DNA of 64,000 nucleotides from Bradyrhizobium sp. CCGUVB1N3 (lineage in GTDB: Bacteria > Pseudomonadota > Alphaproteobacteria > Rhizobiales > Xanthobacteraceae), in NCBI RefSeq assembly GCF_024199925.1, contig NZ_JANADR010000001.1, positions 8,001,501 to 8,065,500 on the forward strand, written 5' to 3'. Of the stretch, positions 4,418-18,181 are shown in pieces. The number at the start of each line of letters is the position of its first letter. Position 1 is the stretch's first letter. The position numbers were made by a program, and so were the translations under genes. The notes beneath the pieces are model-generated. The model saw nothing but the letters and a program-made list of their open reading frames with translations, ran no database searches and was not told where the DNA came from.

Positions 4418-4434
4418 TTGGCCCGCTTCTTGCT
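4418..4434 (+). promoter_or_regulatory. RpoN (sigma-54) -24/-12 promoter of hupS
   Basis: The sequence TTGGCCCGCTTCTTGCT has the GG (4420-4421) and GC (4432-4433) dinucleotides separated by exactly 10 bases, inside a TGGC and TTGC context, matching the consensus TGGCAC-N5-TTGC well. It lies 43 bases before the hupS start codon, so transcription would begin near 4445. Known rhizobial hupSL promoters are sigma-54 dependent and activated by HoxA or NifA. Which activator works here is inference. Confidence 0.8.
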
Positions 4435-4476: not shown

Positions 4477-5568
4477 ATGGAGGTAGCGACGGAAACATTC
4501 TATAGCGTAATCAGGCGACAGGGCATCACGCGCCGAAGCTTTCATAAATTCTGCAGCCTGACGGCGGCGAGCCTCGGGCTTGCGCCGCTGGCGGCGAGCC
4601 GCATTGCCACCGCGCTCGAAACAGAGCCGCGAATGCCGGTGATTTGGATGCATGGGCTCGAATGCACCTGCTGCTCTGAAAGCTTCATCCGTTCCGCTCA
4701 TCCCTTGGTGAAGGATGCCGTGCTGTCGATGATCTCGCTCGACTATGACGACACCATTATGGCGGCAGCCGGACATCAGGCCGAAGCGATCCTCCAAGAG
4801 ACCCGCGCCAAGTACAGGGGCCGGTATGTGCTCGCGGTCGAAGGCAATCCGCCCCTGAACGAGGGCGGTATGTACTGCATCGACGGCGGCAAGCCATTCG
4901 TCGAGAAACTGAAGATGATGGCCGAGGATGCGATGGCGGTCATCGCCTGGGGGACGTGCGCCTCCTGGGGCTGCGTTCAGGCGGCCAGGCCCAATCCGAC
5001 GCGGGCAACGCCCATCGACAAGGTCATAACCAACAAGCCGATCATCAAGGTGCCGGGATGTCCACCGATCGCCGAGGTCATGACCGGCATAGTCACCTTC
5101 ATTATCACCTTCGGCAAGTTGCCCGAGCTCGATCGCCAGGGGCGGCCCAAGATGTTCTATTCGCAGCGCATCCACGACAAATGCTATCGGAGGCCGCATT
5201 TCGATGCAGGCCAATTCGTCGAGGAATGGGACGATGAGGCAGCGCGTAAAGGATATTGCCTGTATAAGATCGGCTGCAAGGGACCAACTGCCTACAACGC
5301 CTGTTCCACGGTGCGCTGGAACGGTGGCATCTCCTTCCCGATCCAGTCCGGCCACGGCTGCATCGGATGCTCGGAAGACGGGTTCTGGGACAAGGGCTCG
5401 TTCTACGACCGTCTCACCAACATCAAGCAGTTCGGTATCGAGAAGAATGCCGACCAGATTGGCATGGCGGTAGCGGGCGCCGTTGGAGCTGCGGTCGGCG
5501 CGCATGCCGCGGTGACGGCCGTAAAATGGCTCGCCAGCAAGCGCGAAGACGCAAATCAAGATCACTAG
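4477..5568 (+). CDS. hupS: Uptake [NiFe]-hydrogenase small subunit
   Basis: The protein of 363 residues carries the electron-transfer iron-sulfur clusters of the membrane-bound hydrogenase, which oxidises H2 and passes electrons to cytochrome b. It starts with a Tat signal (R-R-S-F-H-K at residues 19-24, then a hydrophobic stretch), which would export the assembled HupSL dimer. Cluster-ligand motifs are all present: [37 protein letters not shown] and G-C-I-G-C. A small hydrophobic alanine-rich helix near the C-terminus anchors it in the membrane. ATG 4477 was chosen because GAGAGG precedes it and because the downstream N-terminus matches the family; an upstream in-frame start at 4351 would precede the promoter. 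First gene of the operon, 22 bases before hupL. Confidence 0.97.
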
Positions 5569-5590: not shown

Positions 5591-7381
5591 ATGGGCATCC
5601 GGACACCCAACGGGTTCAAGCTCGAGGATTCCGGCAGGCGCATCGTTGTTGATCCGCTGACCCGCATCGAAGGTCACATGCGGGTCGAGGTCAATGTCGA
5701 CTCCGACAACGTGATCCGCAATGCGGTCTCCACGGGCACGATGTGGCGCGGCATAGAGACCATCTTGAAGGGCCGCGATCCGCGCGACGCCTGGGCCTTC
5801 ACCGAGCGGATCTGCGGCGTCTGTACCGGAACGCATGCGCTCACTTCAGTGCGCGGTGTCGAGAACGCGCTCGGTATCACCATTCCGGAGAACGCCAACT
5901 CGATCCGCAACATGATGCAGCTGTGCCTTCTGGTGCATGACCATCTCGTGCACTTCTATCACCTGCATGCGCTCGACTGGGTCGACGTGATCTCGGCACT
6001 CAAGGCCGATCCGAAGGCGACATCGGCGCTGGCGCAGTCGGTCTCGTCCTGGCCGTTGTCCTCGCCCGGCTATTTCAAGGATCTCCAGATCAGGCTGACG
6101 AAGTTCGTCGCATCCGGCCAGCTCGGACCGTTCAAGAACGGCTATTGGGGCCATGCCGCCTACAAACTGCCCCCCGAAGCGAACCTGATGGTGGTCGCGC
6201 ATTATTTGGAAGCGCTCGATTTCCAGAAGGATATCGTCAAGATCCACGCCATCTATGGCGGCAAGAACCCGCATCCGAACTGGCTGGTCGGCGGTGTGCC
6301 CTGCGCAATCAACGTCGACGGCGCCGGCGCGGTCGGCGCCGTCAATATGGAGCGGCTCAACCTCGTCTCCTCCATCATCAACCGCTGCATCGAGTTCACC
6401 GAAAAGGTCTATCTGCCCGACATCGTTACGATTGGCTCGTTCTACAAGGACTGGCTCTATGGCGGCGGCCTCTCGGGCAAGAGTGTGATGGCCTATGGCG
6501 ACATCCCGGAGACGGCTAACGACTATTCGGCCGGCAATCTGAAACTGCCGCGCGGCGTGATCATTGACGGCAATCTCAATGAAGTGCTGCCAATCGATCA
6601 TGCGGACCCCGAGCAGATCCAGGAGTTCGTCATCCACTCCTGGTACAAATATGCCGATGAGTCCAAGGGCTTGCATCCCTGGGAAGGCGTCACCGAGCCG
6701 AACTATGTGCTCGGTCCCAATGCCAAGGGCACCAAGACCGACATCAAGGAACTCGACGAGGGTGGCAAGTATTCCTGGATCAAGGCGCCGCGCTGGCGCA
6801 GCAATGCGGTGGAGGTTGGGCCGCTCGCCCGTTACATCATCGGCTATGCCCAGAACAAGCCCGAGTTCAAGGAGCCGACGGAAAAGCTGCTCAAGACGCT
6901 CGGCCTGCCCCTCATCGCGCTGTTCTCCACGCTCGGCCGTACCACGGCGCGGGCGCTGGAATGCCAATGGGCGGCGCACCAGATGCGCTACTTCCAAGAC
7001 AAGCTGGTCGCGCGCATCAAGGCCGGTGACTCCTCGACCGCGAATATCGACAAATGGAAGCCGGATAGCTGGCCGCAGGAAACTAAAGGCTACGGCTTCA
7101 CCGAGGCCCCGCGCGGCGCGCTCGCGCACTGGATCAAGATCAAAGAAGCTAAAATCGACAACTACCAGTGCGTGGTGCCCACCACCTGGAACGGCTCGCC
7201 GCGGGATCCCAAGGGCAATATCGGCGCCTTTGAAGCCTCGTTGATGGACACGCCCATGGCGGATTTGCAACAGCCGTTGGAGATCCTGCGCACCATCCAC
7301 TCCTTCGATCCGTGCCTGGCCTGTTCGACGCATGTGATGTCGCCAGACGGCCAGGAAATGGCGACGGTTAAGGTCAGGTAG
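5591..7381 (+). CDS. hupL: Uptake [NiFe]-hydrogenase large subunit (precursor)
   Basis: The protein of 596 residues holds the Ni-Fe active site where H2 is split. The N-terminal ligand motif R-I-C-G-V-C has cysteines at residues 75 and 78, and the C-terminal motif D-P-C-L-A-C-S-T-H has cysteines at 575 and 578. Fifteen residues follow His581. In this family the HupD-type endopeptidase removes that tail after nickel insertion, so the gene encodes the unprocessed form. It carries no export signal and would travel with HupS. Length and motifs agree with an intact, functional subunit. It lies 14 bases before the hupC-hupD frame. Confidence 0.97.
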
Positions 7382-7395
7382 GAGGAAGGAATGCC

Positions 7396-8730
7396 ATGAT
7401 GAGTGCAGTTGCGCCCCCGGGGGAAACTGAGCCGGACCTTGCTGCGGACGCGACCGATGCCGCCGGCGAGCACGCCATCGCGCGGCCCGTGTATATCTAC
7501 GAAGCGCCGGTGCGAATCTGCCACTGGGTGAGTGCGTTTTCGATTTTCGTGTTGGTGGTTACCGGCTATCTGATCGGAACGCCGCTGCCGTCGTTCGCGG
7601 GCGAAGCGTCCGACAACTTCGTGATGGGCTATATCCGCTTTGCCCATTTTGCGGCAGGACAGGTGCTCGCGGTGTCCTTTCTCACCCGCATCCTATGGGC
7701 CTTCGCCGGCAACTACCATTCCCGGCAGATATTCTACATTCCGGTGCATCGTAGGCAGTTCTGGAAGGACGTCTTGCACGAGATCCGCTGCTATGCCTTC
7801 CTAGAGCGCAAGCCGAAGTTGTATCTCGGCCATAATCCGCTGGCGCAGACCGCGTTGTTCACGTGCTTCACGTTGGGCGTGGCCTTCATGATTGTCACGG
7901 GATTGGCCCTCTATTCGGAAAGCACCGGGAACGACAGCTGGCAGCACAAGCTGTTCGGCTGGGTGTTTGCGATCTGGTCGAACAGCCAGGACGTGCGCAC
8001 CTGGCACCATCTGGGCATGTGGATGCTGATCATATTCCTTATGCTGCACGTCTATGCCGTCATTCGCGAAGATATTATGTCGCGCCAGAGCATCATCTCC
8101 TCGATGATCTCCGGTGTACGTCAGCATCGAGACTCGGCGAGCAGGCCGGTGCCGACATGTTTACAGCCAACGCGCATCCTGGTGCTCGGTATCGGCAACA
8201 TTCTTTGGGCAGACGAAGGGTTTGGAGTGCGAGCCGTGGAAGAATTCCATCGCCGCTACGCGGTACCCGATAACGTCACCATCCTGGACGGCGGTACACA
8301 GGGGCTCCAACTTGTGAACTATCTTCGCGAATCTGACTGCCTGATCGTATTCGACGCGGTTGATTATGGCCTAGAGCCTGGACAGTTGAAGGTCGTGCGT
8401 GACGAGGACGTGCCGCGCTTCACCGGCGTTAGGAAGATGAGCCTGCATCATACCAGTTTTCAGGAGGTTATCAGTGCAACTGATCTGCTCGGACATTGCC
8501 CAAAACACCTCGTGCTGGTCGGTTGTCAGCCACTCGACCTCGAGGACTGGGGCGGGTCCCTGACACGGGCGGTGCGCAATCAGATCGATCCTGCGGTAGA
8601 ACTTGCCAGCTCAATCCTAGCTGAATGGGGCGTGGAGGTGACGCCACGCATTGCACCATTGCGGGAATCCGAGTGGTTGCTCGCCAGCGGCATCGATCAC
8701 CTGCACTACGAGATGAGAGCGTGGACCTGA
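7396..8730 (+). CDS. hupCD: Fused HupC (cytochrome b subunit) and HupD (maturation endopeptidase)
   Basis: One uninterrupted frame of 444 codons covers two proteins that are normally separate. Residues 1-240 are HupC: four hydrophobic segments (about 45-62, 83-104, 152-172, 204-223) with the haem-ligand region histidines R-I-C-H-W, F-A-H-F and W-H-H-L plus H-V-Y. Residues 258-415 are HupD: the nucleophile-free nickel-binding endopeptidase fold beginning I-L-V-L-G-I-G-N, with candidate metal ligands Glu274, Asp320 and His351/352, which in this family recognise the HupL C-terminus. The linker 241-257 has no stop codon. An in-frame GTG at 8149 might still allow separate initiation of HupD, but only a weak GAGCAGG lies upstream, and the nearby ATG at 8157 is out of frame. 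With an even number of membrane segments and the N-terminus inside, HupD would face the cytoplasm, where it acts. Confidence 0.9.
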   Translation: MMSAVAPPGETEPDLAADATDAAGEHAIARPVYIYEAPVRICHWVSAFSIFVLVVTGYLIGTPLPSFAGEASDNFVMGYIRFAHFAAGQVLAVSFLTRILWAFAGNYHSRQIFYIPVHRRQFWKDVLHEIRCYAFLERKPKLYLGHNPLAQTALFTCFTLGVAFMIVTGLALYSESTGNDSWQHKLFGWVFAIWSNSQDVRTWHHLGMWMLIIFLMLHVYAVIREDIMSRQSIISSMISGVRQHRDSASRPVPTCLQPTRILVLGIGNILWADEGFGVRAVEEFHRRYAVPDNVTILDGGTQGLQLVNYLRESDCLIVFDAVDYGLEPGQLKVVRDEDVPRFTGVRKMSLHHTSFQEVISATDLLGHCPKHLVLVGCQPLDLEDWGGSLTRAVRNQIDPAVELASSILAEWGVEVTPRIAPLRESEWLLASGIDHLHYEMRAWT

Positions 8731-8760: not shown

Positions 8761-9231
8761 ATGTGTCTTGGTTTGCCCATGACGATTATCGAAACCGACG
8801 GCATCTCGGCGCTTTGCGAGTTTCGCGGCGTACGGCGGCGTGTCTCGGTGCTGTTGCTCTCCAGTCCGCCGGTCCATGCCAAGGTGCTGGTCCATGTCGA
8901 TGCCGCGGTTCGACGTCTAGAGGATCAAGAAGCGCGGCTGATTGCCGATGCGATTGAAGGCATCGGCGCAGCGCTCAATGGCGAGGCTTGCGAGCGCTTC
9001 TTCTCCGACCTGATCGACCGCGAGCCGATACTGCCCGAGCATCTCCGGCTCGACCTGGCCAATGGCCATCTTCGGCACTCCAACACGAACGATACGACCA
9101 GTGCCGGGTTCATGGAAACGGTTGCGAAGCTCGAAGACGCGCCTCTGGTCCAAAGAGATGACTGTGATCCGGTCTTAACAGCGGACTTTTCATCTGAAAA
9201 CGCGGCGTCGCACGCATGGGAAAATATCTGA
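8761..9231 (+). CDS. hupF: HupF, HypC-family hydrogenase chaperone with C-terminal extension
   Basis: The N-terminus M-C-L-G-L-P-M is the HypC/HupF signature; Cys2 is the residue that binds the large subunit or HypD during Fe(CN)2CO delivery. HupF is the paralogue of HypC tied to uptake hydrogenase under oxygen. Residues 1-100 fit the usual HupF length. Residues 101-156 form an extension rich in Asn, Thr, Ser and Asp that I do not recognise; it may be a real tail or read-through caused by an old mutation. It follows hupCD by 30 bases. The next gene, hupG, would begin immediately after. Confidence 0.85.
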   Translation: MCLGLPMTIIETDGISALCEFRGVRRRVSVLLLSSPPVHAKVLVHVDAAVRRLEDQEARLIADAIEGIGAALNGEACERFFSDLIDREPILPEHLRLDLANGHLRHSNTNDTTSAGFMETVAKLEDAPLVQRDDCDPVLTADFSSENAASHAWENI

Positions 9232-9233
9232 CA

Positions 9234-9696
9234 TGGTTAGAACCGGAAGGCTTACGCCGCAGGAACGCCTGATCTGCCGCGACGCGGCCGGTCCGAGGTC
9301 GATTTCACTTGCCTTGATCGCTCTCCAGCCGAGTCCGATGAGGCAGGCGTGGTGACCGTGTTGTTGTCGGCGGCCGATCCCGAAAGACTTGCGGAGGCGA
9401 CCGAGGCTGCCGTCGTTCCGCCCGAGCTGATCAATGAGTTTGTTGGGCGGCTGTGTAGCGCGGTGATCGCACGCAAGGCCGAGGGTGACCTCGCTCAGGG
9501 CTCTTTAATGCGAGGACAGCCGATGGTGATGTTGCTCGCCAAGGCGCAAACACTCGGGCTGACCGCACGAACAATGAAGGCTTGGTCGATCTATGTCGAC
9601 CGTATCTCCAAGCCGATCGCCCGACTACACCGAGAGGCGGCCGCAGTCGTAGGAGCCGCTGTCCCGTACCATAAATCACAGGGTGTCGGACGATGA
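9234..9696 (+). pseudogene. hupG: HupG (HyaE-like) gene without a start codon in its frame
   Basis: The frame that resembles HupG/HyaE (a thioredoxin-fold chaperone for the hydrogenase small subunit) is open from 9241 to the stop at 9694-9696. It has no ATG, GTG or TTG before GTG 9349. Starting at 9349 gives only 115 residues and cuts off the first part of the fold. An ATG at 9234, well placed behind hupF, lies in a different frame and runs into a stop near 9342. This suggests a frameshift near the 5' end. Homology rests on the V-V-T-V-L-L-S-A-A-D-P and W-S-I-Y-V-D-R-I regions and on position between hupF and hupH. The stop overlaps the hupH start. A shortened active protein cannot be excluded. 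Confidence 0.55.
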
Positions 9697-10544
9697 AGGC
9701 GGGCTTCTGGTCGAAGGCTGAAGATGCGGAGCAGCCAATCTACCGCGAGAAGAGCTTTGACGCGACTGGCGGCATCCTGACCGCAGCGGGCGCCTTGGCG
9801 AGGCTTGCGTCGCTCGACAGTGCGGAGCTGGCCAGGAACTGCCCGAGGGCGGTCAAGCTATTGTCAAAGCTCGCCATCACTATCGCCAGGCAAGAGGTCG
9901 CCGCCGCGACGCGACTGTTCAGGCTCGGCAATCTCGACGATCTCGAACGCAAGCTGATTGCCGATGTGCTCGGCGAAGGCGAAGTGGCCGGCCTCATCGC
10001 GCTGCCGGATGGATCTCTCGCGCAAATCCAGGAATCGGTGATGGCCGGGATCTGGCGCGTGCGGCTCGAGACGGATGAGGCATCCGAGTATCTCGAGGTC
10101 GGGGCCATCCCGGAAATCGTGAAGCGCGCGGCCGCCGATTTCACGACGGTAGATTTCGAGATCGGGCGGGTGCCGGAGGGCTCCATGAACGTGCTGCCGG
10201 TCCTTGCCGAAATCCGAGAGCGTGCGCTGGCCTGGCGCCCGGGCATCCTCTCGCAGATCATCAATTTTACGCTGCTGCCGATGAGTCCGGTCGACATGAG
10301 CTTCCTCCATGAGACGATCCGGAACGGGCCGATCCAACTCGTCTCGCGCGGCTACGGCACATGTCGTATGTTTGCGACCGGAATCCGCAATGTCTGGTCG
10401 GTGCAGTTCTTCAATGCGATGGACACCATCATCCTCGACACGCTCGAGATCGGCGGCGTGCCCACGGTCGCGCTCGCGGCCGACGAGGACTTCGAGGATT
10501 CCGCCGAGCGGTTGCGCGAAATCATCGAGGCCTATTTCAAATGA
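9693..10544 (+). CDS. hupH: HupH (HyaF family) hydrogenase expression/formation protein
   Basis: This is an intact 283-residue protein of the HupH/HyaF family, which assists assembly of the small subunit of membrane-bound hydrogenases. The conserved C-terminal region is clear: S-R-G-Y-G-T-C-R-M, then W[22 protein letters not shown]. The start overlaps the hupG stop by four bases (ATGA), and the stop overlaps the hupI start, so translation is probably coupled. The protein is predicted to be cytoplasmic, without a signal peptide or membrane segment. Confidence 0.92.
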
Positions 10545-10737
10545 CGGGTTTCGAGCGTCTTGACGTGCGCCAGCATATTGCCGACGGCACGCGGCTGGTA
10601 TGTTGCATTCGGTCTATGATCCCGCTGACGGCGAGGGGCAGGTCGCGCCTCGCACGCGGATCGCGGCGTTGCCGCAGGACCGGCACTGTCCGGATTGCGA
10701 CGCCTCGAGATCCAACTTCCTGGCGATGGAATGGTGA
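10541..10737 (+). pseudogene. hupI: HupI rubredoxin, frameshifted
   Basis: HupI is a rubredoxin of about 70 residues that protects or assists hydrogenase cluster assembly. From ATG 10541 the frame reads as its N-terminus up to about residue 22, then continues wrongly into a long unrelated frame. From about 10611 the expected sequence (V-Y-D-P-A-D-G-E-G-Q, and the second iron-binding pair C-P-D-C) is found in another frame and ends at TGA 10735-10737. The first iron pair, expected as C-x-x-C, reads C-C-I-R, so one cysteine is lost at the lesion. The gene cannot give a normal rubredoxin without frame correction and a restored cysteine. Confidence 0.8.
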
Positions 10738-11185
10738 TGGGCAAGGCGCATACCCAGCTCAGCGTGGCCAATGCCGTGGCGTGGGGCGAACGGTCGGCCG
10801 GCGCTTATCGCAAGATCGGCGATTGCGCGGTGTGCGATCTGCCGATGCGGCGGTCGGTTTCCGCCTTTTCAACGGCACCATCGTCACCTTCATAGCGACG
10901 CCCTGGTTCATGACCGTGGTGAGTCAGGCGGACGACCTCATGCAGAAGGCGTTCGAGCCCCGGCTGCCGTTGAACCTTCCCGAGGGGAATATCGAGTTCG
11001 CGCTCAGCGAAGTCGAGGCGCTTGGCCGTATCGCAACTTACTCACTGTTCTCTATGATGTTCGATTTCGCAAACATGATTTCGGTGCTGGCGACGGCAGA
11101 GGCCGCGCTCCCAGCCTTGATGCTGCCGGCTAACGCGGAGGAGGTGGTCCACCGGCACGAGCCCGGCGTGACTTTCTCATTGTGA
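10737..11185 (+). pseudogene. hupJ: HupJ (HybE family chaperone), internal deletion and frameshift
   Basis: The start ATG 10737 overlaps the hupI stop. The 5' part, in one frame, includes the usual Y-R-K-I-G-D and D-L-P region. The 3' part, in another frame, includes A-V-G-F-R-L-F, the hallmark T-P-W-F-M, and Y-S-L-F-S-M-M-F-D-F of HybE/HupJ proteins. The switch occurs near 10848-10858, where about seven or eight residues normally found between D-L-P and A-V-G-F are missing. The change looks like a short deletion not divisible by three. Family members help small-subunit maturation. As read, only a truncated product could be made. Confidence 0.8.
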
Positions 11186-11198
11186 CGGAGCGGCATGC

Positions 11199-12278
11199 AT
11201 GAGCCCGGCCTTCCGCAACGAGATCGACATCACGGTCTGGCGCGCCGGCCGCACCATCGCGGACGTTGCAATCCTGCCGCGCAGCCGACCGCCTTTGACG
11301 CGCCTGTTTGCGGGAAAGCCGGTCGCGTCGTTGCTGTCTGTCCTGCCGCGCCTATTTTCGCCGTGCTCGGCAGCCCATCAGGCGGCATTCCTGTCGGCGG
11401 TCGAGGCTGCGCACGGCAAGGTATCCTCTGCCGAGACATTGCAGCGCCGCGTCACCGCCGTGAGCGCCGAGCGTCTGACCGAGCTGTTGCGGGGGCTGTT
11501 CGTAGGTTGGCGCACGCTGGACGGCCCGAGTGCCGCCGTGGCTCGTGCCGCGATGCTGGCCACGACCGTGCTCAGCGGCGGCGAGGGGCCGTCACGGGGC
11601 GGGGCCCTGTCGCAAATCAGGACGTCGCTCAACGCGCTAGGCATCACGGGCGAGGAGCTGGCTCCGGCGCCGGGTAGCGCACTGGCCACGCATCTTGCGA
11701 GCCTCAACGGCAACGCGCTGTCGCTTTCGGTGGTCGAGCAGTCATTCTTGTCAGCGGCCGACGATCTTGACGTCGTCATGCGGATGGTGGCAGACGGCCC
11801 GGCCTTTTCCGATGCGCCCGATCTTCAGGGCCGCATTCCGGAGACCGGCGTCTGGGCGCGCCGGATTGGGCGTGAGTCGATTATTCCGCGGGACGCCGGC
11901 ACTGCCGAGCGCCTGAACGCGCGGATCACTGAGATAGCCCGGCTTTGCGCCTGGCTTGAAGGTAGGACGCAAGTGCTGGAAAACGGCATCATCGGGAGCT
12001 ATCGCCTCGGCGCCGGCAAAGGTGCGGCCGCTGTCGAATGCGCCCGCGGCCGGCTTTACCACGTCATTGCGCTCGATGACGACGATTGCATCGTCCGTTT
12101 CGAGTTCCTGGCCCCGACAGAATGGAACTTCCATGCGCGCGGACCGCTGGTCCGCAGGCTGCGAGGCTCTCTGCCGGCCGACGGGCGGCAGGGACAGGAC
12201 GCGGTGCAAAACCTCGTCAGCTCGTTCGATCCATGCGTCGGCTTCACACTCAGCTTCCGCGAGGTCGGTCATGCATGA
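11199..12278 (+). CDS. hupK: HupK, HupL-related scaffold protein for active-site assembly
   Basis: An intact 359-residue protein. HupK proteins are distant relatives of the large subunit and retain a C-terminal motif like its nickel site: here F-D-P-C-V-G-F at about residues 341-347, with a single cysteine rather than the paired set. It is thought to act as a scaffold or carrier during assembly of the Fe-containing cofactor. The start ATG 11199 follows the hupJ stop by 13 bases, next to GGAGCGG. The stop overlaps the hypA start by eight bases, which joins the hup and hyp parts into one transcript. Confidence 0.9.
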   Translation: MSPAFRNEIDITVWRAGRTIADVAILPRSRPPLTRLFAGKPVASLLSVLPRLFSPCSAAHQAAFLSAVEAAHGKVSSAETLQRRVTAVSAERLTELLRGLFVGWRTLDGPSAAVARAAMLATTVLSGGEGPSRGGALSQIRTSLNALGITGEELAPAPGSALATHLASLNGNALSLSVVEQSFLSAADDLDVVMRMVADGPAFSDAPDLQGRIPETGVWARRIGRESIIPRDAGTAERLNARITEIARLCAWLEGRTQVLENGIIGSYRLGAGKGAAAVECARGRLYHVIALDDDDCIVRFEFLAPTEWNFHARGPLVRRLRGSLPADGRQGQDAVQNLVSSFDPCVGFTLSFREVGHA

Positions 12279-12612
12279 AATGGCGCTATGCGAAGGGATC
12301 ATCGGGATCGTCGAGGAAGAAGCGCGCAAGCACGCGTTCTCCAGGGTGAAGGTGATATTCCTCGAGATCGGAGCGCTCAGTCATGCTGCGCCGGAGGCGA
12401 TGACGTTCTGCTTCGAGGCGGTCGCCGCGCGGACCATCGCGCGAGGCGCGAGGCTCGAAATCGTCGAGACGCCCGCAATAGCCTGGTGCGTGGCCTGCTC
12501 GACGAGCGTCGAGATCAGGCATCGTTATGGACCGTGCCCGTCCTGCGGCAGTCATCGATTGCAGGTGACCGGCGGGGAAGAAATGCGCGTCAAGGAACTG
12601 GAGGTCGACTGA
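12271..12612 (+). CDS. hypA: HypA nickel metallochaperone
   Basis: A protein of 113 residues with the M-H-E N-terminus whose His2 binds nickel, and a zinc site with two C-x-x-C pairs (C-V-A-C and C-P-S-C). HypA with HypB inserts nickel into the large subunit. Length is normal for the family. The start overlaps hupK, and the stop TGA shares one base with the hypB ATG. Confidence 0.95.
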
Positions 12613-13511
12613 TGTGTACGGTTTGCGGCTGCGGTGACAGAAAATGGGTCGTCGAGCATGCACATGATTATGATCATGATCATGGTGGACAGCATCATCA
12701 CCCTCATGGACTCGGCCACGATCGCCATCACCATCATCATGGTGGGACCCATGTTGATGAGCGTGGCGACGTCGGGCTGCTCGATTGCGGTGCGAGTCCG
12801 GCTGGCCGCCGGATTGCCGGCGTGAGCCGCGATCGTATCATCCAGGTCGAACGCGACATCCTCGGCAAGAACGAAAGGCTCGCCGGCGACAACCGCGCAC
12901 GCTTCCGTGCTGACGGTGTGCTCGCGTTCAACCTGGTCTCGAGCCCCGGCGCAGGCAAGACCTCGCTGTTGGTTCGCGCCGTCGTTGAATTGAAAGACAG
13001 CTTTCCGATCGGCGTGATCGAGGGCGACCAGCAGACGTCCAACGACGCCGAGCGGATCCGCGCGACCGGCGTGCCGGCCATCCAGGTCAACACCGGCAAG
13101 GGCTGCCATCTCGATGCCGCGATGGTGGGCGCGGCCTACGACCGGCTGCCTCGCCTGAACAGCGGCGTTCTTTTTATCGAGAATGTCGGCAATCTCGTCT
13201 GTCCTGCGGGATTCGATCTCGGCGAAGCCTGCAAGATCGTGGTGTTCTCGACCGCCGAGGGCGAAGACAAGCCGCTCAAATATCCCGACATGTTCGCTGC
13301 CTCGTCCCTGATGCTGATCAACAAGATCGATCTTCTCCCCGTGCTCGGTTTCGATCTCGCCAGGACTGTCGAATTCGCGCGGCGGGTTAACCCCCGGATC
13401 GAGGTGCTGACGGTGTCGGCGCGCACTGGTGAAGGATTGGCGGCATTCTATGCCTGGATCCGCAAGCAATCGAAGAAGATGAGGCCGGTCGATATGGCCA
13501 CCGCGGAATGA
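12612..13511 (+). CDS. hypB: HypB GTPase with histidine-rich nickel-binding region
   Basis: The protein of 299 residues begins M-C-T-V-C-G-C-G, the high-affinity nickel site, followed by a histidine-rich stretch (about residues 17-48, including a run of five His) that can store nickel. The GTPase domain has a P-loop (S-S-P-G-A-G-K-T-S, about residue 112) and N-K-I-D. HypB powers nickel release from HypA to the hydrogenase precursor. ATG 12612 is favoured over an upstream in-frame start because it gives the exact conserved N-terminus and overlaps the hypA stop. Confidence 0.96.
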
Positions 13512-15769
13512 TCATGCGCGGTGAGGCCACGGCTCAGAATGGACAGCGGCTACGCCTGCATGTGCGCGGCGCCGTGCAGGGCGTCGGCTTCCGACCCTAT
13601 GTCTACGGCCTCGCCGCGCGTTATCGCCTCGGCGGCTTCGTCGCTAACAATCCGCACGGCGTTGTGATCGAAGTCGAGGGCGAACGCACGTCCGATTTCG
13701 TCGCTGCACTGCCGCTTGAAAAGCCGCCGCTCGCGCGGATTGACGAGATCTCTATCCAGAGCATCGCTGCCGTCTTGAGCGACGAATTCTGCATTCGCGC
13801 CAGCGAACAGGGCAAGGTGTCGACGCGGATCGTCGCGGACGCCGCGACCTGTCCGCAGTGTCTGAGCGAGCTGTTCGATCCGAGCAGCCGCTTCCACCTT
13901 TATCCCTTCATCAATTGCACCCATTGCGGCCCGCGCTATACCATCGTCGAGCAGCTGCCCTATGATCGCTCCGCCACGGCGATGAAGCGCTTCGCCATGT
14001 GCGAGGCGTGCGCGAGCGACTATGCCGATCCCACAAGCCGGCGATTCCATGCCGAGGCGATCGCCTGTCCGCAATGTGGCCCGAGGCTCAGCCATAGTGC
14101 CGGGGAGATCGCCGCTGCGATCGCTTCGGGCAAGATCGTCGCGATCAAGGGGCTCGGCGGCTATCAGCTCGTCTGCGACGCGCGCGACGATGATGTCGTG
14201 CAGCGCCTGCGCCGACGGAAACAGCGGGACCAGAAGCCTTTTGCCGTGATGGTGGGCTCGGTCGGCGCGGTTTCGGAGATCGCCAGGGCCAGCATGGCTG
14301 AACTTGCCCTGTTGGAGTCCTCGCCGCGGCCGATCGTGTTGTTGATGTCACGCCAACGACTTGCATCCGCGATCGCACCGGAGCTGTCGCGCATCGGCGT
14401 CATGTTGCCCGTCGCTCCGCTACATCACCTCGTGTTCCATGAACTGAGTTCGAACCATCCGCGGACGGACAAAAACTGGGTGATCGTCGCTACCAGCGCC
14501 AATCCCGGCGGCGAGCCGCTTTTGATCGACAATCGGGAGGCGGCGCAGCGCCTTGGCGCCATTGCGGATCTTATTGTCACCCATGATCGCGACATCGTGA
14601 CGCGCGCCGACGATTCGGTCGCGTCGGTCGTGGCAGGGCGGACGCGGTTCATTCGTCGGGCGAGGGGCTATGTTCCCGAGCCGGTCCGGCTTGCGCGGTC
14701 GCTGCCGCCCGTGCTCGCCGTCGGCGGAGCCTCGAAATCGACAGTCACGCTCACGCGTGGCAACGAGGCCTTCGTATCCCAGCACATCGGCGATCTCGAT
14801 ACCGCGGAAGGCATCCGCTTCTTCGAGGAAACTGTGCGGCACCTGATCGCGATACTGGATGTCGAGCCGGTCGTCGTTGCGCATGACCTGCATCCCAACA
14901 TGGCATCGACCCGCTTCGCCGAGGCGAGCAGCCAGCGGCTGATCGCTGTCCAGCATCATCATGCTCATGCTGCCTCGGTCATGGCGGAGCACGGTATCGA
15001 GGAATCTACGCTCGCGCTCGTGCTCGATGGCTTCGGCTATGGCAGCGATCGCGGCAATTGGGGCGGCGAAATTCTGCTCGGTGAAGGAGCGCGCTTCCAG
15101 CGGATCGGACATCTGGCGCCGCTCAAGATGCCGGGCGGAGAGCGCGCTGCGCGCGAGCCATGGCGAATGGCGGCGAGCGTGCTGCATTCCCTGGGGCGCG
15201 GCGAGGCGATCCCGCGCCGGTTCGCGAGCCGGCCGCAGTCCGCGCGCCTCTGCGCGTTGCTCGACCAATCCGACGTGCCCGTGACGACCAGCGCCGGCCG
15301 GCTGTTCGATGCGGCGGCAGGATTGCTTGGTCTCTCCTCCGTCCAGAGCTATGAGGGCGAGGCCGCGCTGAAGCTGGAGGCGCGCGTGCGCGGCTCCCGT
15401 GTCGTAGATGATGGGTGGGTCATCGAAGACGGCGTGCTGTCAATGCATCCGCTGCTCGATCGCCTTAGCGCCGATGCGCTCGATCCGACCGAAGGAGCCG
15501 AACTCTTCCATGGCACCTTTGCCGCCGCTTGCGTTGACTGGATCGCGCGTGCGGCGCAGCAGACAGGCCTCACGCGCGTAACTTTAAGTGGCGGCTGCTT
15601 CCTCAATGCCATCCTTGCTGAAGAGATCGAGCGCGGCTGCCTCGCCGTCGGTCTCAGGCCGCTGCTTCCGCGCCAGGTGCCACCCAACGACGGTGGCCTG
15701 AGCCTCGGGCAGGCCTGGATCGCGGCCCTGCTAGTCCTCGAACACCAAGGCTCAGAAGGAATCGCCTGA
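13508..15769 (+). CDS. hypF: HypF carbamoyltransferase
   Basis: The protein of 753 residues makes the cyanide ligands of the active site from carbamoyl phosphate, loading the group onto HypE. Domains in order: acylphosphatase-like (about 12-100, with R-G-x-V-Q-G-V-G-F-R-P), two zinc fingers with C-x-x-C pairs (about 115-195), YrdC-like (about 205-385) and a Kae1-like C-terminal domain (from about 400) with the H-H-H-A-H-A metal motif. Length is usual and no lesion is seen. ATG 13508 overlaps the hypB stop by four bases; ATG 13514 is an alternative. The stop shares one base with the hypC start. Confidence 0.96.
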
Positions 15770-16005
15770 TGTGTCTCGCCATACCCGCTGAAGTCATGAA
15801 GCTTCTCACTGAGGATATGGCCGTGGTCTCCATCGATGGCGTCAGCAAGGAGATATCCGTAGCGCTGGTCGAGGATATCGCCATCGGCGACTACGTGATC
15901 ATCCACGTCGGCTACGCTCTGGCCAAGATCGATCCGCAGGAGGCGAGGCGCACGCTCGAGCTCCTGCGCGAGCTCAGCATCGAAGGGCATCGATCCGCGC
16001 AATGA
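15769..16005 (+). CDS. hypC: HypC hydrogenase maturation chaperone
   Basis: A 78-residue protein starting M-C-L-A-I-P, the family signature; Cys2 coordinates the iron during assembly of Fe(CN)2CO on the HypCD complex. It has the usual length and a conserved G-D-Y-V-I-I-H-V-G-Y-A segment. It is the paralogue of hupF, which lies in the same operon. Start and stop overlap the neighbours hypF and hypD. Confidence 0.96.
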   Translation: MCLAIPAEVMKLLTEDMAVVSIDGVSKEISVALVEDIAIGDYVIIHVGYALAKIDPQEARRTLELLRELSIEGHRSAQ

Positions 16006-17144
16006 AATATGCCGACGAATTTCGCGACAAGGCGATTGCGCTGGGGCTGGCAAAGACGATCCACGCCGCGGCCGAGTCGGAAAGATCCTATCGCTTCATG
16101 GAATTCTGCGGCGGCCATACGTACGCGATCTCGCGCTTTGGCCTTGAGGACATCCTGCCGAGCAACGTGCGGATGATCCATGGCCCCGGCTGCCCGGTCT
16201 GCGTGCTGCCGGTCGGGCGAATCGATATGGCGATCCTGCTCGCCGAGCGGCCCGATGTCATCCTGTGCGTCTATGGCGACCTGATGCGTGTGCCGGCTTC
16301 GCAAGGTGCTTCCCTGCTCAAAGCAAAGGCCGGCGGTGCCGATATCCGCATGGTCTATTCCACCATCGATACGATCCGCATCGCAGAGGAGAACCCCGCC
16401 CGCGAGGTCGTGTTCTTCGCCATCGGCTTTGAGACGACGGCGCCGCCGACGGCCGTCATGGTCCGTCTGGCCGAGAAAAAGCAGCTTTCGAATTTCAGCG
16501 TGTTCTGCAACCACGTACTGACGCCGCCGGCGATGCAGAACATTCTGGAGAGCCCCGACATCGGCAATACCGGCCATGTCGCGATCGACGGTTTCGTCGG
16601 GCCGGGCCATGTCTCGACCATCATCGGCACGGCGCCTTACGAGTTTTTCGCGGAGAAGTTCGGCAAGCCGGTCGTGATCGCCGGTTTCGAGCCACTCGAC
16701 ATGATGCAGGCTATCCTGATGCTGGTCCGGCAAGTCAACGAGCATCGCCACGAAGTGGAAAACCAGTATCGCCGCGCGGTGACCCGCGACGGCAATCCGC
16801 GGGCCAAGGAGGAGATTTCCGACATTTTCGAGCTGCGAGATCGGTTCGAATGGCGCGGGCTCGGTGAAATTCCCTACAGCGGGCTGAAGCTGAAGCGCGC
16901 TCACGACATACACGACGCGGAGCTGCGCTTCGACATGCGCGAGCTATGCTTTGCGGACAATCGGGGCTGCGAGTGCGGCGCCATCTTGCGCGGGGTAAAG
17001 AAGCCCGTGGATTGCAAGCTTTTCGGGACGGTCTGCACGCCGGAAATGCCGGTGGGGTCCTGCATGGTCTCCTCAGAAGGCGCCTGCGCCGCGCATTGGA
17101 CCTATCGCCGCTTCCGGGTTCAAGAGCAGAGGGGAGCGTCATGA
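16002..17144 (+). CDS. hypD: HypD iron-sulfur protein, Fe(CN)2CO assembly scaffold
   Basis: The protein of 380 residues works with HypC and HypE to build the iron centre. It has the family motifs F-C-G-G-H-T and H-G-P-G-C-P-V-C-V-L-P in the first third, and at the C-terminus the cysteine set binding a [4Fe-4S] cluster (C-E-C-G-A-I, D-C-K-L-F, V-C-T-P, G-S-C-M and G-A-C-A-A-H). No lesion is seen. It overlaps hypC and hypE by four bases each. Confidence 0.96.
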   Translation: MKYADEFRDKAIALGLAKTIHAAAESERSYRFMEFCGGHTYAISRFGLEDILPSNVRMIHGPGCPVCVLPVGRIDMAILLAERPDVILCVYGDLMRVPASQGASLLKAKAGGADIRMVYSTIDTIRIAEENPAREVVFFAIGFETTAPPTAVMVRLAEKKQLSNFSVFCNHVLTPPAMQNILESPDIGNTGHVAIDGFVGPGHVSTIIGTAPYEFFAEKFGKPVVIAGFEPLDMMQAILMLVRQVNEHRHEVENQYRRAVTRDGNPRAKEEISDIFELRDRFEWRGLGEIPYSGLKLKRAHDIHDAELRFDMRELCFADNRGCECGAILRGVKKPVDCKLFGTVCTPEMPVGSCMVSSEGACAAHWTYRRFRVQEQRGAS

Positions 17145-18181
17145 GAGGCCATCAACGCAAGCTCGACATCAGGAATGGCTGCATCGACCTGTCTCACGGC
17201 TCCGGCGGCCGTGCGATGGTACAGCTGATTTCGGGGCTGTTCCACGAGGCCTTCGGCAATGAATGGCTGGCGCGCGGCAATGATCAATCGGCCTTCGACG
17301 TCTGCGCCGGTCGCATGGTGATGACGACCGATGGCTACGTCGTTTCGCCACTGTTCTTCCCGGGCGGGAATATCGGTTCGTTGGCCGTGCACGGCACGGT
17401 CAACGACATCGCAATGGCCGGGGCGAGGCCGCTTTACCTGTCGGCGAGCTTCATCATCGAGGAGGGGTTTCCCTTCTGCGACCTCGAGAGAATCGCCGAT
17501 TCCATGGGCGAAGCAGCGCGATTGGCCGGCGTCCACATCATCACCGGCGACACCAAGGTGGTCGAACGCGGCAAGGCCGACGGCCTGTTCATCTCGACAG
17601 CCGGTGTCGGTGTGGTGCCCGACGGGCTCAATCTCTCCGCGGAGAACGCATGCGTCGGAGACCGCGTTCTGATCTCGGGCACGCTCGGCGATCATGGCAT
17701 CGCCATCATGTCCAAGCGGCAGAACCTCGCCTTCGAAACCGAGATCGCGTCCGATTCGGCGGCGCTCCACGATCTCGTCCAGAAGATGGTTCAGGCCGGA
17801 GGCCACGGCATTCGCCTGATGCGTGACCCCACGCGCGGCGGGCTTGCCGCGACCCTGAACGAGATCGCCCAGCAATCCGACGTCGGCTTCCGCTTGCAGG
17901 AAGAGGCAATCCCGGTGAAACCGGGCGTGGCGGCGGCCTGCGAGCTCCTCGGACTCGATCCGCTTCATGTCGCCAATGAAGGCAAGCTGGTTGCGATCGT
18001 GTCGCCCGACGTCGCCAATGCCGTGCTCGCTGCCATGCGGACGCATCCGCTCGGCTGTGATGCCGCCGACATCGGCGAGGCGATCGCCGACGCGCGTCAT
18101 TTCGTGCAGATGATCACCAGTTTTGGCGGCGGCAGCATCGTCGACTGGCTATCGGGCGAGCAACTGCCGCGCATCTGCTGA
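17141..18181 (+). CDS. hypE: HypE, thiocyanate-forming maturation protein
   Basis: The protein of 346 residues, of the PurM/ThiL-like ATP-binding superfamily, dehydrates the carbamoyl group received from HypF on its terminal cysteine to give a thiocyanate. The C-terminus P-R-I-C is intact, and the N-terminal S-H-G-S-G-G and the T-D-G-Y-V-V-S-P region are conserved. ATG 17141 is chosen because a strong GAGGGGAG lies upstream and the start overlaps the hypD stop (ATGA). It is the last recognised gene of the hup/hyp operon. The hoxX and hoxA genes that follow hypE in some bradyrhizobia are not found here. Confidence 0.96.
   Translation: MRGHQRKLDIRNGCIDLSHGSGGRAMVQLISGLFHEAFGNEWLARGNDQSAFDVCAGRMVMTTDGYVVSPLFFPGGNIGSLAVHGTVNDIAMAGARPLYLSASFIIEEGFPFCDLERIADSMGEAARLAGVHIITGDTKVVERGKADGLFISTAGVGVVPDGLNLSAENACVGDRVLISGTLGDHGIAIMSKRQNLAFETEIASDSAALHDLVQKMVQAGGHGIRLMRDPTRGGLAATLNEIAQQSDVGFRLQEEAIPVKPGVAAACELLGLDPLHVANEGKLVAIVSPDVANAVLAAMRTHPLGCDAADIGEAIADARHFVQMITSFGGGSIVDWLSGEQLPRIC

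Follow-up and report, generated by a model that had tools for sequence, protein, structure and literature searches.

A hupC–hupD gene fusion found in one Bradyrhizobium clade and its putative membrane-tethered hydrogenase maturation protease

In the window, that is, the whole 64,000-nucleotide stretch of DNA analyzed here, the genes for the b-type cytochrome HupC and the maturation endopeptidase HupD are joined without a stop codon in one open reading frame that retains both domains complete (Table 1). Both parts belong to known families, while their fusion appears to be new and, as far as searched, confined to one clade; titles and abstract openings of the hydrogenase-fusion literature yielded no published hupC–hupD (HyaC–HyaD) fusion. 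We are moderately confident that the fusion is a real, clade-specific trait that tethers HupD to the membrane, where it would act on the large subunit HupL, with free HupD as a possible second product in seven of the eight fused genomes. Through this gene, the position of the final maturation step of [NiFe] hydrogenases relative to membrane docking becomes testable. As a natural protease–cytochrome fusion that in one species lacks an internal start, it also offers a system in which to ask whether HupL is processed at the membrane.

According to the mechanism we favor, an ancestor of at least eight Bradyrhizobium-type species, so termed after their named neighbors, would have lost the hupC stop codon in frame with hupD, and completed HupC would thereafter have carried HupD on its cytoplasmic C terminus via a short, variable linker. 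Removal of the HupL tail by the tethered protease would then occur at the inner membrane, next to the cytochrome accepting the HupL electrons and just before export of HupS–HupL. In one genome, G134, from which the internal start codon has been lost, the fusion would probably be the main source of HupD. The maturation path may have been remodeled, as this clade has also lost the hupF stop codon and its hupI, hupG and hupJ genes have decayed. From the sequences, we infer translation as one chain, stability of that chain, activity of the tethered protease and a gain from clipping near the docking partner.

The fused gene, its distribution and its origin

Profile searches placed a complete domain in each half. 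The HupC part matched TIGR02125 of NCBIfam (residues 33–245, 222.3 bits versus a cut-off of 121.5) and Ni_hydr_CYTB of Pfam (PF01292, residues 35–240, 100.6 bits versus 30.1), and the HupD part matched TIGR00140 of NCBIfam (residues 261–412, 211.9 bits versus 151.8) and HycI of Pfam (PF01750, residues 278–405, 143.6 bits versus 23). With 444 codons open and both halves above the curated cut-offs, the original prediction of HupC and HupD in a single frame without a stop is borne out. Using phmmer, residues 33–245 were matched to Escherichia coli HyaC (4gd3) and residues 260–418 to HybD (1cfz). The first half resembles the HupC/HyaC subunit of group 1 [NiFe] hydrogenases (TIGR02125; 4gd3) in its full-length domain, its four predicted membrane segments and its operon position after hupL but differs in having no stop codon and in bearing a protease domain of ~20 kDa at its C terminus. 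The second half shares with the HupD/HyaD/HybD endopeptidases (TIGR00140, PF01750; 1cfz) the full domain, the metal-binding residues and a retained HupL substrate tail. These enzymes are normally separate soluble proteins, whereas the fused HupD is attached to a membrane protein in eight genomes, the window's included.

Table 1 Features of the fused gene and of the surrounding hup–hyp operon in the window.
Feature	Coordinates	Strand	Basis
hupC–hupD fused open reading frame, 444 aa	7396..8730	+	Open reading frame analysis, Pfam and NCBIfam matches
HupC part, residues 1–240, b-type cytochrome	7396..8115	+	Pfam, NCBIfam, hydropathy, phmmer, dN/dS
Junction, residues 241–258, site of the HupC stop in split relatives	8116..8169	+	Codon table
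GTG, candidate internal start for free HupD	8149..8151	+	Counterpart of the HupD ATG in split relatives
HupD part, residues 259–444 and stop, maturation endopeptidase	8170..8730	+	Pfam, NCBIfam, phmmer, dN/dS
hupS, small subunit, CTCC motif kept	4477..5565	+	dN/dS 0.10
hupL, large subunit, C-terminal tail after DPCLACSTH kept, HupD substrate	5591..7381	+	dN/dS 0.10
hupF, 156 aa versus the usual 98	8761..9231	+	Stop codon lost
hupG remnant, partly open, usual start codon gone	9253..9696	+	Comparison with relatives
hupH, no lesion seen	9693..10544	+	dN/dS 0.27
hupI (rubredoxin) remnant, frameshifted	10541..10731	+	Comparison with relatives
hupJ remnant, frameshift near start	10734..11185	+	Comparison with relatives
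hupK, no lesion seen	11199..12278	+	dN/dS 0.30
hypA, hypB, hypF, hypC, hypD, hypE, no lesion seen	12271..18181	+	dN/dS 0.16–0.25

A search of 265 genomes of the genus, 139 of which matched at E ≤ 1e-40, was based on alignable rows, so that it might overlook a fusion whose linker cannot be aligned; among the matches listed, a stop-free row across both domains occurred in eight genomes. These are the window's own (G000) and, with their identities to the window, G177 (96%), G247 (93%), G248 (80%), G046 (78%), G134 (78%), G260 (77%) and G148 (75%). In 45 further genomes, one row spanned both domains with at least one internal stop, and the other listed ones matched in pieces. All eight fused junctions were read, every other junction read carries a stop after HupC and a frame scan of 125 loci flagged only the loci of the same eight genomes. 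Among 80 named loci, that of Bradyrhizobium sp. Ec3.3 (G177, NZ_AXAS01000037.1) was the only fused one. G022 and G089 at first seemed to have a shared open frame as well, but stops lie between their two genes.

Beyond the genus, no fusion besides that of the window was found in the order (397 genomes), the class (385) or the phylum (398); because only 58, 1 and 5 genomes, counting the window's each time, matched at the limits used (1e-60, 1e-100 and 1e-100), distant fusions would be missed. Among the 30 plasmid records listed of 112 that matched, 29 were annotated with two genes and one had no annotation.

A sequencing or assembly error that deleted a stop is vanishingly improbable. The original prediction had called for a comparison of the junction in related strains, and this comparison found the same open frame in eight separate genomes with different linker codons, five of them assembled in 1 to 3 contigs, which excludes sequencing error. 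Recurrence of the joined frame in eight of 265 genomes of the genus argues equally against chance and assembly error. On a HupL tree of 84 rows, computed with a quick method, the eight fused rows form one side of a single branch (SH-aLRT 95), and the fused state maps as one change, a value that none of 500 shuffles reached. The fusion is thus shown to have a single origin on the HupL tree, where its nearest split relatives are G207, B. iriomotense and B. jicamae. Separately, a distant hup lineage of the genus (G057, G020 and G005) has damaged hupD frames and altered ends of HupC.

Constraint, topology and substrate of the two halves

Selection was assessed from pooled Nei–Gojobori (NG86) dN/dS values over 28 pairs of fused genomes, which are not independent. 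Values were 0.57 for HupC residues 1–30, 0.245 for the HupC core (31–240), 0.81 for the linker at the junction and 0.16 for both the HupD core (259–405) and the HupD tail. Both halves are under purifying selection by this measure, and the maturation protease domain stays constrained though attached to a membrane protein. In one split pair, the values were 0.116 for the HupC core and 0.104 for the HupD core; these lower values in both cores suggest that some relaxation in the fused genes is possible. Glu274, an Asp and a His align with the metal ligands of HybD (1cfz), which we take to be Glu16, Asp62 and His93, and all three are kept in all eight fused rows. The conserved HupC histidines, some of them presumably heme ligands, are likewise kept in the eight-row alignment.

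Kyte–Doolittle hydropathy delineated four HupC segments at residues 41–59, 75–93, 154–172 and 205–223, and the successive loops contain 2, 0, 9, 2 and 5 Lys and Arg residues. Both ends of HupC are predicted from hydropathy and loop charges to lie in the cytoplasm, which would place HupD there as well, ~35 residues after the last membrane segment. The claim that the protease faces the cytoplasm thus agrees with both measures, the second segment scoring barely above threshold (1.32 versus 1.3). HupL processing takes place in the cytoplasm and precedes export.

The presumed substrate is intact: HupL of the window ends in DPCLACSTH plus 15 residues, and the tail beyond this motif is kept in all eight fused genomes. 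The cleavable large-subunit tail is described as following a DPCxxCxxH/R motif (PMC2670836). At E 0.01, the fused HupD is the sole PF01750 match in seven of the eight fused genomes. In G134, another match, weak at 46 bits, lies on contig C2 beside a second, different hydrogenase, which this protease probably serves. We infer that tethered HupD works as a protease from the selection on it, its retained catalytic residues, the loss of the start codon in G134 and the fact that no other suitable protease was found. The second G134 locus (C2:13000-26000) encodes a [NiFe] hydrogenase that differs in type and has a maturation protease of its own; a protein in its neighborhood appears NifU- and Rieske-like by eye.

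Junction, operon and competing explanations

In split relatives, HupC mostly ends in ERQFRD or EREFRD followed by a stop, and many HupD proteins begin with ATG-Pro-Thr. The fused junctions read through, as RDSASRPVPT in the window and RDNRGRGAVPT in G046, and their linkers differ by one codon in length in the eight-row protein alignment. As originally described, the junction contains no in-frame ATG, and the GTG is present: an ATG at 8157 is out of frame, and the closest in-frame ATG upstream is codon 237 (8104), within the HupC tail. The GTG, in frame as codon 252, aligns with the ATG-Pro-Thr start of split HupD. At this codon, six fused genomes have GTG, G248 has ATG and G134 has GCG.

Predicted Shine–Dalgarno pairing amounts to −4.3 kcal/mol at the GTG versus −10.2 kcal/mol at the hupC ATG. 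Split hupD starts, found in 79 of 83 loci, have a median of −5.0, and 29 are weaker than −4.3; the 35 split loci from Bradyrhizobium have a median of −4.3, equal to the window's value. The ribosome-binding site, previously called weak, is indeed weaker than that of hupC but ordinary among split hupD starts. Internal starts with strong pairing occur in G248 (−9.3) and G046 (−6.5). In G134, the in-frame ATG, GTG or TTG codons within 25 codons on either side are ATG at −25 and −16, both inside HupC and with pairing of −1.0 and −2.1, and TTG at +11; the latter has pairing (−3.8) near that of the window's GTG, and a start there would cut the first HupD strand, as judged from HybD. An internal GTG or ATG could therefore give rise to free HupD in seven of the eight fused genomes, and species with a good internal start likely make both fusion and free HupD. 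Because the frame has no stop after HupC, every completed HupC should bear HupD unless cleaved, and HupC by itself would need cleavage or early termination.

Retention of the joined frame was compared with split loci, where hupC and hupD share a frame in 15 of 35 Bradyrhizobium cases. Between split pairs, the relative frame differs in 4 of 26, 20 of 35 and 251 of 352 comparisons at fourfold-site distances of 0.02–0.15, 0.15–0.30 and 0.30–0.60, respectively, versus 0 of 5, 0 of 4 and 0 of 19 between fused pairs. By parsimony, the split trees, built from 35 loci or from the 32 nearest, hold 12 frame changes, from which 2.3–2.7 would be expected on the fused tree; given this indel rate, the probability of seeing none is 0.07–0.10, and we rejected frame keeping as proof of selection. 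Stop avoidance in the linker was rejected as well, as all eight linkers stay open with a nonsignificant probability of 0.28–0.56 under neutral substitution in simulations. The evidence of selection for the joined frame itself is, hence, suggestive rather than conclusive.

The operon has the order hupS-hupL-[hupC-hupD]-hupF-(hupG)-hupH-(hupI)-(hupJ)-hupK-hypABFCDE, with remnants in parentheses. Over the 28 fused pairs, dN/dS is 0.26 for hupF, 0.17 for hypA, 0.21 for hypB, 0.19 for hypF, 0.16 for hypC, 0.25 for hypD and 0.18 for hypE, and no frame lesions were noticed in hupS, hupL, hupH, hupK or the hyp genes across the eight genomes. Other genes are altered. The hupF stop is lost in all eight, adding 32–58 residues, and the first 16 codons of the extension (dN/dS 0.31 over few sites) hint at selection on it. 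All eight genomes also have a frameshifted or cut hupI; hupJ is missing or a trace in G247, G134, G260, G148 and G046, and its normal start region is absent in the window, G177 and G248. As for hupG, it was not found in G248, G260 and G148, is frameshifted in G177 and G046, is partial in G134 and is mostly open at ~50% identity in the window and G247, the window copy having no usual start. In split G207 and G242, by contrast, hupG, hupI and hupJ match at full length. The same gene order, hupSLCDFGHIJK-hypABFCDE, occurs on plasmid p187_1 of Bradyrhizobium sp. 187, but there, unlike in the fused clade, hupC and hupD are separate, hupF encodes 98 aa and the annotation has hupG, hupI and hupJ as whole genes. 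A gene labeled formyltransferase that follows hypE on this plasmid was not found in the eight fused genomes. In split G242, hupH and the rubredoxin gene hupI run together in a stop-free frame of 356 aa, a separate case of joined genes.

The fused clade keeps hupS and hupL under strong selection despite the broken rubredoxin gene. The CTCC motif of HupS is typical of oxygen-tolerant enzymes, and its retention does not fit simply with the loss of oxygen helpers. HupF is a chaperone that holds unfinished HupL. A published account (PMC3534401) states that HupF is required for HupL processing and shields HupL in oxygen and that HupGHIJ or homologs adjust the synthesis of HupS to oxygen and matter less when oxygen is very low, as in nodules. 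Perhaps the hydrogenase of the fused clade is nodule-specialized for low-oxygen work, which would account for the lost accessory genes. Two hup loci have been described in B. diazoefficiens USDA110 (PMC4791120).

With three accessory genes decayed, the whole cluster could be on its way out and the fusion be one of its lesions, a reading to which the broken hupI and the lost hupF stop in eight of eight genomes and the decay of hupG and hupJ would lend themselves. We consider it very improbable, given dN/dS values of 0.10 in hupS and hupL and 0.16–0.30 in hupF, hupH, hupK and the hyp genes, all without a noticed frame lesion across the eight genomes. The same alterations could instead reflect a remodeled assembly line, with the protease built into the membrane subunit, a selected C-terminal extension gained by HupF in the same ancestor, HupL clipped at the membrane during its hand-over to export and HupG, HupI and HupJ made needless; we put this forward tentatively and with some doubt. 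Cleavage after translation, which would restore separate HupC and HupD, is improbable: a short, variable linker with a dN/dS of 0.81 is what an exposed joint would look like, but visual inspection of the linker rows revealed no common cutting motif.

The internal start codon is kept in seven of eight genomes and the window's pairing matches the Bradyrhizobium hupD median, so free HupD may do the work, with the copy on HupC a tolerated passenger of a neutral stop loss. Strong pairing in G248 and G046, better sequence conservation just after the GTG than before it and the nonsignificant statistics for retention of the joined frame are in keeping with this scenario, which we regard as possible, if somewhat unlikely. 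HupC would have had to bear a 20-kDa passenger for long without being cut, none of the 28 fused pairs shows a frame change and HupD remains constrained in G134 despite its GCG codon (dN/dS 0.10–0.23 for the HupD core in its seven pairings with the other fused genomes). This combination, seen in one draft genome (G134), argues more strongly for a working fusion than any other single observation and favors the membrane-tethered protease.

Promoter and nif surroundings

A sigma-54-like −24/−12 site, detected with a loose pattern, lies upstream of hupS at 4419..4434 (+) and is present in all ten clusters compared, while no FixK/Fnr-like box was found within 600 nt before hupS in any of the ten. 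NifA-box-like TGT-N10-ACA motifs occur ~455–462 nt upstream of hupS in four of the eight fused genomes, the window not among them. All eight also carry nifH ~15 to 34 kb from the fused gene. This linkage was rejected as a mark of the fused clade, as split G242 and G018 have nifH at similar distances (~19 and ~32 kb). In the window's genome, two nifH copies (contig C1:7965178-7988791) are located within ~44 kb upstream of the fused gene.
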